From Oceanospirillaceae bacterium (GTDB taxonomy: Bacteria > Pseudomonadota > Gammaproteobacteria > Pseudomonadales > Oceanobacteraceae), in contig PBNY01000019.1 in the NCBI GenBank assembly GCA_002723385.1, positions 1 to 57,883 on the forward strand: a DNA stretch of 57,883 bases, read 5' to 3'. Below are positions 12,479 to 52,871 of the stretch, one piece after another. The notes under the pieces are model-generated. The model ran no database searches and was not told where the DNA came from. It worked only from the letters and a program-made list of their open reading frames with translations. How positions within the stretch are numbered: position 1 is the first letter of the stretch; every line of letters begins with the position of its first letter. Both the position numbers and the translations under genes were made by a program.

Positions 12479-15400
12479 ATGATGCGCTTATTTGCGAAGG
12501 TCTTGATGCTGGTCGGATGTCTGACCATTTCAACTCAGATTCTGGCACTGGGCCTGGGGGAGCTGACATTACGCTCCGCGCTGAATCAGCCACTTGACGC
12601 CGAAATTGAACTGGTTGATGCCGAAGGCCTGTCCCAGTGGGAAATCAAGCCTTTTCTGGCCAGCAACGTTGCCTTTGAGCAGGCCGGGGTGGATCGCCCT
12701 TATTTTCTGACCAAGATTCGTTTCAAGGTTGAAGGCCAGAAAGTTCGATTGACGACAAAAGACCCGGTTACTGAACCATTCCTGAACTTTTTGATGGAGT
12801 TGAACTGGCCATCAGGGCGTGTTTTGCGGGAATACACTGTGCTGCTGGATCCTCCGACTTTCGAGGACGACAACTATCAGCCGCTGGCATCTACCCCTTC
12901 ATCCGCTGGTATGGAGACAACCCAATTTCAGGGAGGTTCCAATCAGGTTCGATCATCTCAGTCTCGCCCTACACCTCCGGCTTACGCGCCGACGCCAGAG
13001 CGAGCCCCGACAGAGCAGGCTCCGGTAGAGCAGCCGGGTACATATCGGGTTCAGCCGAACGATACTCTGTGGAGCATTGCTCTGCGTACCCGTCCTTCCC
13101 GTGATATCACACCACAGCAAATGATGGTGGCGATTCAGAGCGACAACCCGGAAGCTTTTATCGGTGGCAACATCAACCGCCTGAAAACCCATTCCGTACT
13201 TCGGATTCCGGATCAGGAACGGGTCAATGGCATTACCTTCAATGCGGCCGTCTCAGAAGTGGCTCGCCAGAACCGTGAAGTCAATGCTGGCCCGGCACAG
13301 CTGGATGCAACAGGTCGGGATTTCTCAACTGGCCGTGATCAGCGCGAAGCATCAGGCGGTGAAGTCAAACTGGTTTCAGCTCGCGCCAACGAAGCCCGCT
13401 CTGCCGGTGCCAGTGGTGATGTAACTCGTGGTAGTGGTGGTCGTCAGGAAGCACTGGAAAATGAACTGGCCATCAGCCTTGAGAATCTCGACAAAACCCG
13501 TCGGGAAAACAAGGAATTGCGCGATCGCCTCGAAGATTTGAGTGAGCAGCTGGATGAAATGCAGCGCTTGCTGACAATGAAAAACAGTCAGCTCGCGCAC
13601 ATGCAAGCAAACGCAGCTCAGCAGGCTGGCACCTCTGTTCTCGATGAAAGTCCGATTTCTTCCATAGATGGATCCAGTACTCAGCTGGAGGCCGGTGCTC
13701 CTGAATCCGATGCTACTGCCCCGGTACCACAGCCCGCGCCAGCCATAGATGCACAGCAGCAGGCAGCAACAGCACCACCGGCGCCAGCTCCTCGTCCTGA
13801 AGAGCCGATTCAACCGCGTAAGAAATTCACTCCACCACCTCCACCGCCGACCTTCCTTGAATCACTGATGGAAGACCCGATAACTCTGGTTGGAGGCTTG
13901 GGCGCCTTGTTGTTATTGGTTGGCCTGGCAGTGATGTACGTCCGCAAGCGCAAAGAGGGTGATGAAGAAGATGCCATGGCCGCCGAAGACACGGCTATTG
14001 CAGAACCGATTTCGCTTGAAGTAGAGGACAGCCAACTGGTGGCTGCAGAAGAGGCGCCTAAAGATGATTTCGATGACCTGAACAACTTCAACTTCGACAC
14101 CGTGTCCGATGACGACGGTGGAAGTTTGATGGGTGGTCTGGATCTTGGAGATGAACTGACGTCCGCCGATGATACGTCTTCAGAGACTGTTTCTTCCGAG
14201 TTGTCAGAAGTAGCCAGCCCTGAGGATGACAGTGTTGATGTGTCAGACCTTGACTTTGGCGACGAAGATGATGACCTGTTCGAGCTGGTAGACCTGGATG
14301 TTGCGTATGGTAGATTCGATGATGCGGTCAGCCGACTGCAGTCTGCTATTGATGCCCAGCCAGGTCGCACCGATGTTCGTCTGCGTTTGCTTGAGCTGTT
14401 GGTGGAAATGGGTGATTCACAGCGTTACGTCGAGCAGGAAAATGCGGTCATTGAATTGGGTGATGCTGAATTGATTCAGCAAGCTTCCGATTTGCGTCAA
14501 TTGCTCAGTGATCCAATTGAGCCGACGGCAGAACCCGCCGCAGACCAGGACGATGTCGCTTCCGATGTGGATGTCTCTATCGACCAAATAGGACGTGATC
14601 TGAACGATTCTCTCGAAGACGGTATTTCGTTTGGCGATGCACTCGATATTTCTGACGATGATCAGGCTCTGGAAGAGTTTAGCTTTGATGAATCCGAGAC
14701 ATCCGAATTGGCCGAGCTGGCTGACGAGAGTGAAGTCTCTGAAGACGATATGCTTGATTTGGCGACGCTTGAAGCTGAGCTGGGAGAAGACGTTGCTGAG
14801 CTTGAAAAGCAGGATGAAGAAGCTTCCGAAGCGGAAGGTGGCCTGGAATTCGATCTTTCCAGTCTTGCTGAACAGCACGATGAAGAAGAATCCTCAACCG
14901 ATGTTGAGGTCGATGACTCCAATTTGATGGAGTTTGATGCGGCAGAAATCGATCTGGATCAGCTGGACGAAGTCGCTGAGCCGGATGATGTCTCTGAAGT
15001 TGACGACGAAAACAGCATGGAATTTGATCTGAGCTCGCTGGAAGAGCTTGATGAAATGGATGTTGTATCGGAAGCAATGGAGGATGAAGAGCCTGATAAC
15101 CTGATGGACTTCGAAGAAATCGAAGTCCTGACTGAGACTGAAGGCGAAGCAGACAACGTCGACGAAGAAACCTTTGAAGAAGAAAATCAGGTTGATTTCG
15201 ACCTGGGAGAACTCGAAGACGAACTGGGTGAGCTGGAAGAACCAGAAGAAGTAGCATTGGATGCCGAAGACGATCAGGCCGTTGACTTCGATTTGTCTGA
15301 ACTGGATGCAGAACTGGGTGGCTTGGAAGAAGAGTCTTCGGAAATTGCTGACTCCGGTGATGCGATGGCAATGGATTCCGATGACATCGAGGCACTTGAT

Positions 15401-17221
15401 TCTGACTTGAGTGAAGTTAGCCTAGAAGCTCTGATGGATGCAGAATCTGCGGAGCACGGCGAATTTGACCTTGCTGAGCTAAAGAGCGAGTTCTCTGCGG
15501 ATGAACCCCTGGAAGATGGAAATGTTCCGAGTCTGGATGCTCTTGGTGATCTGCCAGAGTTGGATTCCCTTGCTGACGATGAATCAGTAGATGGTTTGGC
15601 TGCTCTTGAAGCTGAGCTGGAAGGGACTGAGTTGCCTGCTGCCGACGACCTGGAAGATATGCCAGAGCTTGAAGTGGCAGATGGTGATCTGGAGACACTG
15701 GAAGCTTTAGACGAGCTTCCAGAGCTGGAAAGTCTGGAAGAGTTGCCAGAGCTTGAAGCCGAGGCTGGAGACGGTGAAGAGTCAGTCGATGTCTTGGCTT
15801 CTCTTGACGAGGAGTTGCCTGAACTGGAGTCTCTGGAAACCGCAGACGTCGCCGAATTGGATGAGCTTCCTGAGCTGGAAAGTCTGGAAGAGTTGCCAGA
15901 GCTTGAAGCTGAGGCCGGAGACAGTGAAGAGTTAGCTGATGCCTTGGCTTCTCTTGATGAAGAGTTGCCGGAACTGGAGTCTCTGGAAACTGCAGACGTT
16001 GCCGAATTCGATGAGCTTCCGGAGCTGGAAAGTCTGGACGAGTTACCAGAGCTGGAAGTCGAGTCTGAAGGAAATGAAGAATCAGCCGATGTCCTGACTT
16101 CTCTTGATGAAGAGCTGCCGGAACTGGAGTCTCTGGAAACCGCAGGCGTCGCCGAGTTGGACGAGCTTCCGGAGCTGGAAAGTCTGGACGACTTACCAGA
16201 GCTGGAAGTTGAGTCTGAAGGAAATGAAGAATCAGCCGATGTCCTGGCTTCTCTTGATGAAGAGCTGCCGGAACTGGAGTCTCTGGAAACCGCAGGCGTC
16301 GCCGAGTTGGACGAGCTTCCGGAGTTAGATGATCTGGACGACTTACCAGAGCTGGAAGTCGAGTCTGAAGGAAATGAAGAATCAGCCGATGTCCTGGCTT
16401 CTCTTGATGAAGAGTTGCCAGAACTGGAGTCTCTGGAAGTTGCCGATGTTGCAGAGGTGGACGAGCTTCCTGATCTGGACGATTTGCCAGAGCTGGAAGT
16501 CGAGCCTGATGAAAATGAAGATCCAGCCGATGTCCTGGCTTCTCTTGATGAAGAAGTGCCAGAACTGGAGTCTCTGGAAGTTGCCGATGTTGCAGAGGTG
16601 GACGAGCTTCCAGAGCTGGATGATCTGGACGACTTACCAGAGCTTCAAGTAGGGTCTGATGAATCAGTTGATGTGCTGGCATCTCTAGATGAAGAGCTGC
16701 CCGAGCTGGATTCTCTTGATGAGCTTCCTGAACTGGGTGATGACGATACATTACCAGAGTTGGATGAGACTGCTTCACTTGATGATCTGCCAGTTCTGGA
16801 TGAACCAGATCTGGATGAGGCAGTCGATGAAATCCCTGAGTTGGATGCGTTGCCAGAGCTTGAGCCGCTGGAAGTAGCAGAGGAAACGGAGACAGCTTCG
16901 GATGTAGAGCCTTCCGTCATTGATTCCGTCGTAGACGCAGCTCCGGTTGCAGGTCTGGCAGCAGCCGCGTCGGCAGTTGCCGCTTCGAGTGATAGTGGTG
17001 TCAAAACCAACGACATTGATTTGGAAGCTTTGGCGAAAACGGACGATGAGTTTGATTTCCTGTCCGGCACCGACGAGTGTGATACCAAGCTGGAACTGGC
17101 TCAGGAATACCTGAATATGGGTGATGAAGACGGTGCTCGGGAGCTGCTTGGAGAAGTGGTTTCTGAGGGAACAGACCCTCAAATTCACAAGGCTAGAGAA
17201 CTGCTGGACACATTTGCCTGA
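12479..17221 (+). CDS. fimV: FimV-type polar/pilus assembly protein with an expanded acidic repeat region
   Basis: Inner-membrane, peptidoglycan-binding organiser of the cell pole, type IV pili and twitching in relatives. Domains in order: signal peptide (1 to about 23, cut before LGLGELTLRSALNQPL); FimV N-terminal domain; LysM domain (about 187-245, YRVQPNDTLWSIALRTRPS); coiled coil (about 324-381); Pro-rich segment; one membrane helix (about 467-492, VGGLGALLLLVGLAVMYVRKRK); a short TPR-like stretch (about 598-677); a very long Asp/Glu-rich cytoplasmic region; and the conserved FimV C-terminal TPR-like domain ending KLELAQEYLNMGDEDGARELL. At 1580 residues it is much longer than typical (about 700-1000). 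The excess is in the acidic region, which contains seven tandem 47-50-residue repeats. AAGGAAG upstream and the signal peptide fix the start. truA begins three bases after its stop. Confidence 0.95.
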   Translation: MMRLFAKVLMLVGCLTISTQILALGLGELTLRSALNQPLDAEIELVDAEGLSQWEIKPFLASNVAFEQAGVDRPYFLTKIRFKVEGQKVRLTTKDPVTEPFLNFLMELNWPSGRVLREYTVLLDPPTFEDDNYQPLASTPSSAGMETTQFQGGSNQVRSSQSRPTPPAYAPTPERAPTEQAPVEQPGTYRVQPNDTLWSIALRTRPSRDITPQQMMVAIQSDNPEAFIGGNINRLKTHSVLRIPDQERVNGITFNAAVSEVARQNREVNAGPAQLDATGRDFSTGRDQREASGGEVKLVSARANEARSAGASGDVTRGSGGRQEALENELAISLENLDKTRRENKELRDRLEDLSEQLDEMQRLLTMKNSQLAHMQANAAQQAGTSVLDESPISSIDGSSTQLEAGAPESDATAPVPQPAPAIDAQQQAATAPPAPAPRPEEPIQPRKKFTPPPPPPTFLESLMEDPITLVGGLGALLLLVGLAVMYVRKRKEGDEEDAMAAEDTAIAEPISLEVEDSQLVAAEEAPKDDFDDLNNFNFDTVSDDDGGSLMGGLDLGDELTSADDTSSETVSSELSEVASPEDDSVDVSDLDFGDEDDDLFELVDLDVAYGRFDDAVSRLQSAIDAQPGRTDVRLRLLELLVEMGDSQRYVEQENAVIELGDAELIQQASDLRQLLSDPIEPTAEPAADQDDVASDVDVSIDQIGRDLNDSLEDGISFGDALDISDDDQALEEFSFDESETSELAELADESEVSEDDMLDLATLEAELGEDVAELEKQDEEASEAEGGLEFDLSSLAEQHDEEESSTDVEVDDSNLMEFDAAEIDLDQLDEVAEPDDVSEVDDENSMEFDLSSLEELDEMDVVSEAMEDEEPDNLMDFEEIEVLTETEGEADNVDEETFEEENQVDFDLGELEDELGELEEPEEVALDAEDDQAVDFDLSELDAELGGLEEESSEIADSGDAMAMDSDDIEALDSDLSEVSLEALMDAESAEHGEFDLAELKSEFSADEPLEDGNVPSLDALGDLPELDSLADDESVDGLAALEAELEGTELPAADDLEDMPELEVADGDLETLEALDELPELESLEELPELEAEAGDGEESVDVLASLDEELPELESLETADVAELDELPELESLEELPELEAEAGDSEELADALASLDEELPELESLETADVAEFDELPELESLDELPELEVESEGNEESADVLTSLDEELPELESLETAGVAELDELPELESLDDLPELEVESEGNEESADVLASLDEELPELESLETAGVAELDELPELDDLDDLPELEVESEGNEESADVLASLDEELPELESLEVADVAEVDELPDLDDLPELEVEPDENEDPADVLASLDEEVPELESLEVADVAEVDELPELDDLDDLPELQVGSDESVDVLASLDEELPELDSLDELPELGDDDTLPELDETASLDDLPVLDEPDLDEAVDEIPELDALPELEPLEVAEETETASDVEPSVIDSVVDAAPVAGLAAAASAVAASSDSGVKTNDIDLEALAKTDDEFDFLSGTDECDTKLELAQEYLNMGDEDGARELLGEVVSEGTDPQIHKARELLDTFA
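15710..16720 (+). repeat. Seven-copy ~150-bp in-frame tandem repeat in fimV
   Basis: Unit starts at 15710, 15860, 16010, 16160, 16310, 16460 and 16601; the sixth copy is 141 bases and the last about 120. Each encodes a variant of DELPELESLxELPELE, then ASLDEELPELESLE, ending in (T/V)A-V-A-E. Copies three and four differ at only about five positions, pointing to recent duplication, while the outer copies have diverged. All copies keep frame. Confidence 0.93.
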
Positions 17222-49176: not shown

Positions 49177-51116
49177 AGTACGTCCTCGGACTCCTGTGAT
49201 TCAGACTGTCGATGCTGTTGTTGATATTGATAGAGGAACTTGCGTTCAAGCAGTTTGCCGGGTTGGTCTGGCACCCGGTTGAGCCATTGCTTCAGGCGGG
49301 TTTGTTGTTCTGCTGTGAGTGATTGATCCGGCTGGCCCTGCTGCTGATCAGTGGATTCTGTTTCACTCTGTTGCTCTCGTTCGGCTTGTTCTTGATCTGC
49401 TTGCTGCTGGCGAGTGTCGTTTTCATCGCCTTGCTCTGCATTCTCATCCGATGGCTGCTGCTCGTTTTCCTCGCTGGTGTCATCAGAATTCCGGGCGCTG
49501 TCTTCTTCTGAGCGGCTTTGCTGCGGGTCCTGGGAGCCGTTTTCCTGCTGATTTTCACCACCACTCTGGCCATCGGACTCGTCCTGCTCCGAAGAGTCGC
49601 CTGAATTCTGTTGCTGACTCTGTTCGTCGCCTTGCTGCTTATCAGAGTTTTCACCGTCTTGTGAATCCCCGGAATCTTGCTGCTGGTCTTGCTGTTGGTT
49701 GTTCTGTTGATTGTTCTGTTGATTGTTCAGCGCTTCCTGAACGCGTTCGCGGTTGGTGGCGGCGTCCCTGAGTTCCGGGTTCAGTGCCAATGCCCGGTCG
49801 TAGGCTTCAATTGCGGCCTGTAATTGCCCCGATTGTGCCAGCGCATTACCAAGGTTGTAGTGACCGGTTGCCGACTGATCCTGACCGAATGCCTCAATGG
49901 CTTGCTGATATTGTCCGGCCCGGTAGGCGGCTGTGCCTTTCCAGTTGGGGTCGTCGAAGGCTTCAGAGGCCGCCGCCGGATCATCCTGCAGCAACTCGGC
50001 TCCCTGCTGATCCGGGGTTTGCCAGAGGTCTTTCCATTCCAGGGCGTAAACCGGTTGTGGTGAAGCCAGCAGCAGAGCCAGTCCGATGGCTGGGCCTGTC
50101 ATGGAGAACAGAACCCCGCGACGGAATGCCAGCAGGGCCACCGGCAGCATCAGTAGCAACAACCAGTAACCCTGATCCAGCCAGAGATCGAACTGACGCT
50201 GCTCTTTGTCGGCGGATTCATCTGGCGAGGCGTCAGTAAAGGTCTGTGGACCAGTACTGATCAGGCTTTTCCAGTCGTTATCGGTCAGCCCCATAGGGCG
50301 CCAGCGCACACCGGCTTCCCTGGACAGTTGTTCGATCGGCCCGGTATTCAACTGTGGTAGTACCACGGTGCCGCTGGCGTCCTTCAGAAAGCCGCCTTTG
50401 GGCAGCGGGATCGGCGCACCTTCGGCGGTACCCACTGCCAGCACCGAGAGGGTGAAATGCTCGCTGTCCATTACCCGGTCGATTCGATCAATGTCTTTGG
50501 TTTGAATGCCATCCGTGATCAGCAGTAGCTCGGCCTGATTGATATTGCTGTTGCGAACCAGTTGCTGCGCCAGCTCAATCGCCAGATCGGGGCGGCTACC
50601 GGGTTTGGGCATGATGTAAGGCGACATGGATGGCAACAGGTTGGTGATGGTATCGCTGTCGTCGGTGAGCGGCGTCACCGTATGTGCGGCACCGGAATAG
50701 GTGACCAGTGCGGTGAGGCCATCCTGACGGGCGCGCAGGATATCGGTCACTTTATGGCTGACCTGCTGGTAGCGGGACGGTTTAACGTCTTCTGCCGCCA
50801 TGGAATACGACATGTCGACCATGATCACCAACGCATGCAGGTTCTTGCTCACAGGTTGAGGCAGTTGTTGCCAGGTCGGCCCGGCAAGGGCGATGCTGGC
50901 GAGTAACCAGGCCAGTAATAGCCACCACAGGGACTGCTTGTCTTTGGGGCCGGGCGTGTAGTCCAGCATAAAAGGCTGTAATTCGGGATCAATCACGGTT
51001 TGCCACTGGCTGCGTCCAAAGCGGGCATTCAGCAGCAGAATAAACAGCAGCATGGCTGGAATCAGGGCCAGCAGCCATACGGGTCTGAGAAAGTGAAACT
51101 GGGTCAGAAGCTCCAT
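49170..51116 (-). CDS. batB: BatB-BatC fusion: vWA membrane protein with TPR and Gln/Asp-rich tail
   Basis: Protein of 648 residues. Two N-terminal membrane helices (about 13-30 and 62-78) are followed by a von Willebrand A domain with the metal site D101-M-S-Y-S105 and a later LLITDGIQT. A further hydrophobic pair lies at about 318-352. Then come a TPR segment (about 395-455, AIEAFGQDQSATGHYNLGNA), a low-complexity Gln/Asn/Asp/Glu/Ser tract (464-599), and a conserved C-terminus WLNRVPDQPGKLLERKFLYQ. This joins what are separate BatB and BatC proteins elsewhere; the fused form is common in proteobacteria. It lies 10 bases after batA. Confidence 0.9.
   Translation of the reverse strand: MELLTQFHFLRPVWLLALIPAMLLFILLLNARFGRSQWQTVIDPELQPFMLDYTPGPKDKQSLWWLLLAWLLASIALAGPTWQQLPQPVSKNLHALVIMVDMSYSMAAEDVKPSRYQQVSHKVTDILRARQDGLTALVTYSGAAHTVTPLTDDSDTITNLLPSMSPYIMPKPGSRPDLAIELAQQLVRNSNINQAELLLITDGIQTKDIDRIDRVMDSEHFTLSVLAVGTAEGAPIPLPKGGFLKDASGTVVLPQLNTGPIEQLSREAGVRWRPMGLTDNDWKSLISTGPQTFTDASPDESADKEQRQFDLWLDQGYWLLLLMLPVALLAFRRGVLFSMTGPAIGLALLLASPQPVYALEWKDLWQTPDQQGAELLQDDPAAASEAFDDPNWKGTAAYRAGQYQQAIEAFGQDQSATGHYNLGNALAQSGQLQAAIEAYDRALALNPELRDAATNRERVQEALNNQQNNQQNNQQQDQQQDSGDSQDGENSDKQQGDEQSQQQNSGDSSEQDESDGQSGGENQQENGSQDPQQSRSEEDSARNSDDTSEENEQQPSDENAEQGDENDTRQQQADQEQAEREQQSETESTDQQQGQPDQSLTAEQQTRLKQWLNRVPDQPGKLLERKFLYQYQQQHRQSESQESEDVLW
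49320..49727 (-). repeat. Low-complexity Gln/Asp-rich coding tract in batB
   Basis: Encodes residues 464-599 of the BatB-BatC protein, almost entirely Q, N, D, E, S and G. It begins with a repeated NNQQ unit and has no predicted fold. It links the TPR region to the conserved C-terminal helix and is prone to length variation. Confidence 0.85.
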
Positions 51117-52206: not shown

Positions 52207-52871
52207 TAGCTTGCACCTCCCGGTCCGGTTGGCTGACCCGCCACGTTTGCCTGCAAATGGGAACGCTCTTGCGGGGATTGGGATTCGGGTGATTTTTCTT
52301 CGGGGGATTGCTCTTCAGGGAATTGAAACGCTGCTTTGTCCAGCCAGGTCAGCACCGCGTCTCTGAGGCTGTCGGCATTCACGGCGGACAGATGCTCAAC
52401 GGGTTGATAAGGGCCTGAAGCCAGGGCTAATCGCTGTTCCGGGTTGAATCGGATACCTGAGCAGCTCTCCATCCAGTTCACCCAGTCTTCGCCCGACAGC
52501 GGCAGCGCAGCCGGAGCCTGCTTGCGACAATAGCGCTTGAGTTGGGTATTCACCTCGGCACAGAAGCGGGAGATATCACGATGCGACTGCCAGTCCTGAT
52601 AGCCGTGCAACACGGCCTCGCGGGCGTGTTTGTTCAGCTGACGTTGTGATTGCCACGGGTTGACCCAGCGCTTTTGGGCGTAGCGCAGGCATAGTGCCAG
52701 CACAATCGACAAGGCCAACAACAGCCACCATCCGGGGGCCAATGGCCAAAACGACACCGGATCAGGCTGGTGGATATCCTCCAGCTGCAAGGTCAGGGTC
52801 GGCTGAGGTAGTGCCGCAGATTGTGCCGCAGATTGTGGCGTTGCAGATGAAGGCGATGCCGTTGAGGTCAT
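52206..52871 (-). CDS. DUF4381 membrane protein
   Basis: Protein of 221 residues with a single membrane helix (about 54-73, PGWWLLLALSIVLALCLRYA), a conserved DUF4381 helical domain (LNKHAREAVLHGYQDWQSHR, then TQLKRYCRKQAP and GEDWVNWME), and a short Glu-Ser-Pro repeat near the C-terminus. The start at 52871 has AGAGG eight bases upstream and overlaps the DUF58 stop (ATGA); an in-frame start 42 codons earlier would lie deep inside the DUF58 gene. DUF4381 proteins occur almost only in MoxR-vWA operons, where their role is unknown. Confidence 0.87.
   Translation of the reverse strand: MTSTASPSSATPQSAAQSAALPQPTLTLQLEDIHQPDPVSFWPLAPGWWLLLALSIVLALCLRYAQKRWVNPWQSQRQLNKHAREAVLHGYQDWQSHRDISRFCAEVNTQLKRYCRKQAPAALPLSGEDWVNWMESCSGIRFNPEQRLALASGPYQPVEHLSAVNADSLRDAVLTWLDKAAFQFPEEQSPEEKSPESQSPQERSHLQANVAGQPTGPGGAS

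Follow-up and report, generated by a model that had tools for sequence, protein, structure and literature searches.

Acidic repeats are a recognized feature of HubP, in which their composition, length, and number differ even between close species, and they are said to be absent from FimV (accessible sections of PMC12918733). According to the same sections, an Ig-like domain and a second, internal TPR are found in FimV and reportedly lacking in HubP, and the FimV proteins of Pseudomonas aeruginosa and P. putida are 919 and 911 residues long. When domains were swapped between FimV of P. putida and HubP of Shewanella putrefaciens, as also described there, the acidic part proved not to be freely exchangeable. 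In S. putrefaciens HubP, FlhF binding lies in residues 860-1033, outside the C-terminal TPR (excerpt of PMC11236974), and the characterized partners of Vibrio cholerae HubP, which bears multiple acidic repeats, primarily contact its acidic cytosolic modules (excerpt of PMC8789113). Tandem repeats within genes annotated as fimV are known from bacterial strain typing: the Legionella pneumophila repeat LPG1299/Lpms35, 18 bp × 3 in the Philadelphia strain, is a typing locus (excerpt of PMC2639597), as is the Ralstonia solanacearum repeat VMGP8, present in 3-4 copies among strains (excerpt of PMC12366337). A further precedent is PopZ, a polar organizer tuned by its disordered region (excerpt of PMC9512792). 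The accessible part of PMC9140986 yielded nothing on repeats, and the literature covered on FimV and HubP repeats, mostly non-subscription, yielded no FimV that combines a long acidic array with both an Ig-like domain and an internal TPR.

The window analyzed here, 57,883 nucleotides of a contig from an Oceanospirillaceae bacterium, contains a fimV gene that combines these traits. Judged from its domain matches, the encoded protein carries the full FimV set, namely an Ig-like domain, a core/LysM region, a membrane helix, an internal TPR, an acidic arm, and a C-terminal TPR, arranged as follows:

12479..17221, + strand: fimV coding sequence, 1580 aa (open frame; FimV_core and FimV_Cterm over cut-off; start by congener alignment)
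12548..12856, + strand: periplasmic Ig-like FimV_N domain, aa 24-126 (PF25800, E 2e-36)
13061..13279, + strand: FimV core/LysM region, aa 195-267 (TIGR03505, E 8.8e-26)
13880..13939, + strand: predicted transmembrane helix, aa about 468-487 (20-mer with top mean hydropathy, 2.28)
14255..14509, + strand: internal cytoplasmic TPR domain, about aa 593-677 (PF14559 and arm model)
17084..17209, + strand: C-terminal FimV TPR domain, aa 1536-1577 (TIGR03504, E 5.4e-16; confident helices in arm model)

The open frame begins 72 bases upstream of codon 12479, which would give 1604 aa; the start at 12479 matches the N-termini of six congeners in an alignment. The Ig-like domain scores 124.8 bits against a cut-off of 27 and is present in all seven genus members. 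The FimV core scores 89.5 bits (cut-off 43.45), and the Pfam LysM model itself reaches 20.3 bits, slightly below its cut-off of 20.9. The membrane helix was placed by a hydropathy scan, not a dedicated topology predictor; its peak at aa 468 is aligned across the seven genus members. The Pfam match of the internal TPR covers aa 609-646 (E 1.5e-9), and in an AlphaFold2 model of the arm this region is drawn as a confident helical bundle with a pLDDT of about 90. The C-terminal TPR scores 58.4 bits (cut-off 30.65) and matches PDB 4mal/4mbq, "Motility protein FimV," with an E value of 6e-15. By eye, we take the neighboring frames to be asd-like upstream and truA-, trpF-, trpB-, and trpA-like downstream.

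Within this gene, positions 15710-16750 hold seven units placed head to tail:

15710..15859, + strand: repeat unit 1, 50 aa (Tandem Repeats Finder, TRF, and unit alignment)
15860..16009, + strand: repeat unit 2, 50 aa (TRF and unit alignment)
16010..16159, + strand: repeat unit 3, 50 aa (TRF and unit alignment; 97.3% identity with unit 4)
16160..16309, + strand: repeat unit 4, 50 aa (TRF and unit alignment)
16310..16459, + strand: repeat unit 5, 50 aa (TRF and unit alignment)
16460..16600, + strand: repeat unit 6, 47 aa (TRF and unit alignment)
16601..16750, + strand: repeat unit 7, divergent, its tail merging into irregular LPEL modules (unit alignment)

TRF reports a period of 150 over 15710-16644, with 6.3 copies, 88% matches, and a score of 1198, compared with a top score of 79 when the codons of the arm were shuffled 100 times. 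The initial annotation had described seven 150-bp units; the number stands and the uniform length does not, five units being 150 bp, one 141 bp, and the last divergent. It was right that the reading frame is kept throughout and that copies three and four are nearly identical: 4 of their 150 bases differ, which makes them the closest of the 21 unit pairs, and the remaining 20 pairs show 11 to 36 differences over 126-150 compared bases. Equal divergence among all units, which the same annotation had named, together with constant copy number in all strains, as refuting its reading, is not seen. Instead, mean identity drops steadily with the distance between units, from 0.878 for neighbors to 0.748 for units six apart, and only 18 of the 5040 possible orders, the real one and its reverse included, place neighbors at least as alike. 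Neighboring units are 75-97% identical in DNA, compared with the 67-75% expected from the proteins they encode and from codon usage elsewhere in the arm. None of 1000 resamplings of this codon null reached the observed identity for five of the six pairs, and 2 of 1000 did so for units 6 and 7, whose identity lies only just over the null. Selection on the protein alone is insufficient to explain this excess, and the DNA itself was duplicated step by step. As read from the DNA, then, the array is the product of stepwise, in-frame tandem duplication. The proposed recent unequal exchange is supported to that extent; slippage and unequal recombination cannot be told apart.

An antisense open frame of 453 aa with a GTG start (15417-16778, minus strand) covers the whole array. 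It matches no Pfam family above cut-off, with one match below threshold. Because the unit length is a multiple of three, an antisense frame free of stops in one unit will tend to stay free of them in the others, and this frame is probably a by-product of unit length. Short tandem repeats also occur elsewhere in the window, at 52265-52325 (15 bp), 49692-49728 (12 bp), and 52811-52837 (12 bp).

The array corresponds to aa 1078-1424, and its 347 residues include 49 aspartates, 98 glutamates, and not a single lysine, arginine, or histidine. The initial annotation had called for a look at charge and disorder: the array is 42% acidic with no basic residues, and it has no confident fold in either of two predicted models. 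When aa 1060-1470 were modeled alone with AlphaFold2, the mean pLDDT was 47.5 and the pTM 0.14, no solenoid formed, and six of the seven short helices coincided with ADVLASLDEE stretches of the units. The model of the whole arm, built with seven aligned sequences, features two confident helical domains at about aa 593-677 and 1524-1579, joined by about 850 residues, the whole array included, almost all of them with a pLDDT below 60; here the array is drawn with longer, low-confidence helices. The array is thus probably a disordered acidic linker, with low pLDDT a weak sign of disorder when the input is one or seven sequences. Since it sits between two confident TPR domains, it lengthens the linker that joins them. 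The further proposal that the array lengthens the cytoplasmic arm agrees with this placement, between the membrane-near internal TPR and the C-terminal TPR, as given by the domain matches and the arm model.

A repeated sequence element of the array is the tetrapeptide LPEL. In a typical unit this module occurs three times, at spacings of 9, 24, and 17 residues, together with the short ADVLASLDEE stretch of some helix tendency, and the arm as a whole contains 23 occurrences against 0.25 expected from composition. The six unit pairs that link the array differ by 98 base changes and only 39 residue changes, 10 of which are swaps between glutamate and aspartate. Neutral simulations in six settings of varied transition bias and base composition gave means of 61-67 residue changes, and in each setting none of 1000 runs came as low as 39. 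Correspondingly, dN is below dS in all 21 unit pairs, with dS reaching 0.96 between more distant units. The three proline columns of the unit do not vary at all; of the ten mostly-leucine columns, nine are free of substitution (one has a gap) and the tenth has a single valine. Column 50 is mixed, with L, F, and V, and, E/D swaps aside, variation falls mainly in columns 17-30 and 44-50. This pattern of substitution favors the view that the leucine-proline modules are constrained in addition to the charge. Part of the likeness between units reflects how recent the duplicates are, and part could stem from selection acting on charge and length alone.

The search of relatives comprised 55 genomes including this one, with a FimV core match in 54; the longest FimV open frames were 1604 aa (the present gene), 1370, and 1312. 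The 49 loci compared were the gene itself, 47 of the 53 other matching genomes (G035, G041, G044, G045, G047, and G049 being left out), and Marinobacterium arenosum, the only relative returned by a scan of named genomes; two of the 49, G022 and G023, end at a contig edge. A TRF score of at least 300 was found in three: the present array (1198), M. arenosum (519, 96-bp unit), and the congener G004 (355 and 362, units of 81 and 87 bp). A search of the order covered 390 genomes, 363 of them with a match, and 80 of the best-scoring matches listed, which are not a random draw, were compared. One of these 80 (G280, 518, 48-bp unit) scored at least 300 and six at least 100, and their frames, measured stop to stop, had a median of 1033.5 aa and a maximum of 1214. 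No frame among the order matches listed, which do not include the present gene, exceeded 1370 aa. Across the 129 FimV genes compared, the array described here has the top TRF score and its protein is the longest; no array like it was found in the 47 relatives or in the 80 further genomes sampled from the order. The remark that FimV is normally much shorter thus holds for Pseudomonas and for this order, and is too strong given the variable repeat arms of the HubP relatives. The comparison drew on one genome per species, and copy number may, as the initial annotation suggested, vary between strains.

The four strongly repetitive FimV proteins, those of the present genome, M. arenosum, G004, and G280, all have the Ig-like domain. 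An internal TPR was found in the present protein and in G280; in G004 it is visible below threshold only (PF13428, aa 645-682), and none was detected in M. arenosum by domain profile search. PF14559 matches all seven genus members; in G004, however, it scores best on the C-terminal stretch. The large tandem arrays of the three other proteins are also in frame and made of acidic units, at aa 875-998 and 1138-1177 in G004 (L050), aa 782-918 in M. arenosum (L049), and aa 826-943 of the G280 frame (L163). A 42-bp × 4.2 array lies at aa 217-274 of the G406 frame (L160), early in FimV and before the usual acidic arm. In blastp comparisons of array segments, the present array matched the 33-bp LPEL array of G004 with an E value of 0.007; the other nine of the ten pairs gave 0.47 or worse, or no match. 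A shared origin of the arrays was considered and set aside, the segments being mostly unlike. A tree of the conserved FimV ends did not resolve this genome (G000) against G004, and the LPEL richness of these two may be shared or separate. In that tree, support for the genus as a group is 60/0, and G005 clusters with G001 (100/98), a protein with a single LPEL.

Within the genus, the array occurs in one of seven members; the six others have shorter arms with 1 to 7 LPEL. The counts are graded, with 23 here, 7 in G005, 6 in G004, and 3, 2, 2, and 1 in the other congeners; the remaining 42 proteins have at most 2 and the 80 order proteins at most 1. Two congeners have amplified LPEL in tandem with other periods, 33 bp in G004 (where LPEL recurs after 11 and 22 residues) and 30 bp in G005 (after 10 residues). 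The small module thus already exists in the genus, and the 50-residue unit is a higher-order repeat of it.

As to potential clients, this genome has one gene over the PilQ cut-off and two adjacent genes over the pilT-family cut-off, presumably PilT and PilU. FlhF, FliG, and FlhA are over cut-off in five of the seven genus members, and none of them is in this genome or in G003; the sub-threshold FlhF matches presumably belong to other GTPases of the SRP type. Since flagellar genes tend to cluster and both genomes are 90-93% complete, the absence is likely to be real and a loss of the flagellum within the genus, in G000 and G003, is probable. If so, the usual flagellar clients are not what the arm recruits here. 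A link between the array and flagellar loss was rejected, as G003 also lacks all three genes, yet only G000 has the array.

We propose that the array is a disordered linker with repeated LPEL modules, lengthened by duplication, that tunes client capture at the pole, a reading for and against which we regard the scales as about level. The periplasmic part would be held at the polar wall, with the linker forming a long, strongly negative tether whose leucine-containing modules may act as many weak docking sites. More copies would strengthen client capture and extend the reach of the C-terminal TPR, and the clients here would more likely be type IV pilus or signaling proteins than flagellar ones. 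A broader claim, that FimV/HubP arms are tunable multivalent docking arrays and that LPEL is an undescribed client-docking motif in this genus, seems to us doubtful. It envisages a short module, here LPEL, being amplified in tandem repeatedly and independently; were it true, copy number would let a lineage set how strongly its pole recruits and how far the reach between its two TPR domains extends.

Several other explanations compete with tuned docking. The array may be a spacer in which no module binds, adding only length and negative charge, so that cluster properties follow linker length and repulsion. The relatives' arms are indeed all acidic (27-37% D+E) with widely different lengths, four FimV proteins have amplified mostly unlike units, as expected if composition alone counts, and the disordered region of PopZ offers a precedent (PMC9512792, as excerpted). 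Composition alone fits poorly, however, with residue changes well under the neutral expectation, with leucine and proline columns that are held, and with amplification of LPEL at three different periods in one genus, and we consider a mere spacer possible though on the improbable side. Drift would go further still, slippage or recombination expanding a tolerant, disordered coding region to no functional effect. Such a process would suit an array confined to one of seven genus members, as well as the 3 versus 4 copies in Ralstonia (PMC12366337, as excerpted) and the use of a Legionella fimV repeat for typing (PMC2639597, as excerpted). It is unlikely in view of the large synonymous change between distant units, across which residues were largely kept.

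Two more readings concern whether the array is real and whether it folds. The source genome is a draft of 104 contigs, 90.26% complete, in which copy number could have collapsed or expanded; units 3 and 4 are nearly identical, and fully identical copies may be lost in such an assembly. Yet no two units are identical and no exact repeat inside the array exceeds 77 bp, less than the usual length of a short read, such that an array of this kind is resolvable with ordinary short-read data; an artefact is very unlikely. Folding as a leucine-rich-repeat solenoid is suggested by a PF25019 match of 49.4 bits (cut-off 27) and a weaker PF23598 match below cut-off (E 0.019). The PF25019 match occurs in one of the seven genus members, however, no single stretch passes alone, and neither of the two low-confidence models contains a solenoid. 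With acidic residues making up so much of the array, we judge the match compositional and give a solenoid scarcely any credence.

The finding is an extreme case of known variation, in a branch said to lack repeats. The union of all FimV domains with a HubP-like array in one protein blurs the rule that only HubP has acidic repeats, and the large, mostly unlike arrays in three other FimV proteins with Ig-like domains suggest that arm amplification recurs in polar landmarks. The graded LPEL content of the genus also provides a natural series in which linker length, charge, and module number could be set against one another in client recruitment.

Relative to described systems, the protein resembles HubP of V. 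cholerae and S. putrefaciens in its LysM-like region, membrane segment, long, acidic, mostly unstructured arm with imperfect acidic repeats, and C-terminal FimV TPR. Unlike HubP, which is known here by description and not by sequence comparison, it has an Ig-like domain and an internal TPR, and because both are present we do not file it as HubP. With P. aeruginosa and P. putida FimV it shares the complete order of Ig-like domain, LysM, membrane segment, internal TPR, acidic arm, and C-terminal TPR; it differs from these proteins, reported to be repeat-free at 919 and 911 residues, in its 1580 residues and seven-unit array. In our view, the lack of arm repeats describes Pseudomonas FimV and does not define the family. 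Like the Legionella and Ralstonia genes, this one has tandem repeats inside a gene annotated fimV; those repeats, compared by description only, have fewer copies, and the Legionella unit is much shorter. PopZ of Caulobacter crescentus is comparable in manner of working alone, as a polar organizer with a disordered region, and is not claimed as a homologue. Variable numbers of acidic repeats were thus already known from HubP, and tandem repeats from Legionella and Ralstonia fimV; the novelty lies in a long acidic array that stands alongside FimV-type domains, and in FimV arms having repeatedly amplified units that are mostly unlike one another.
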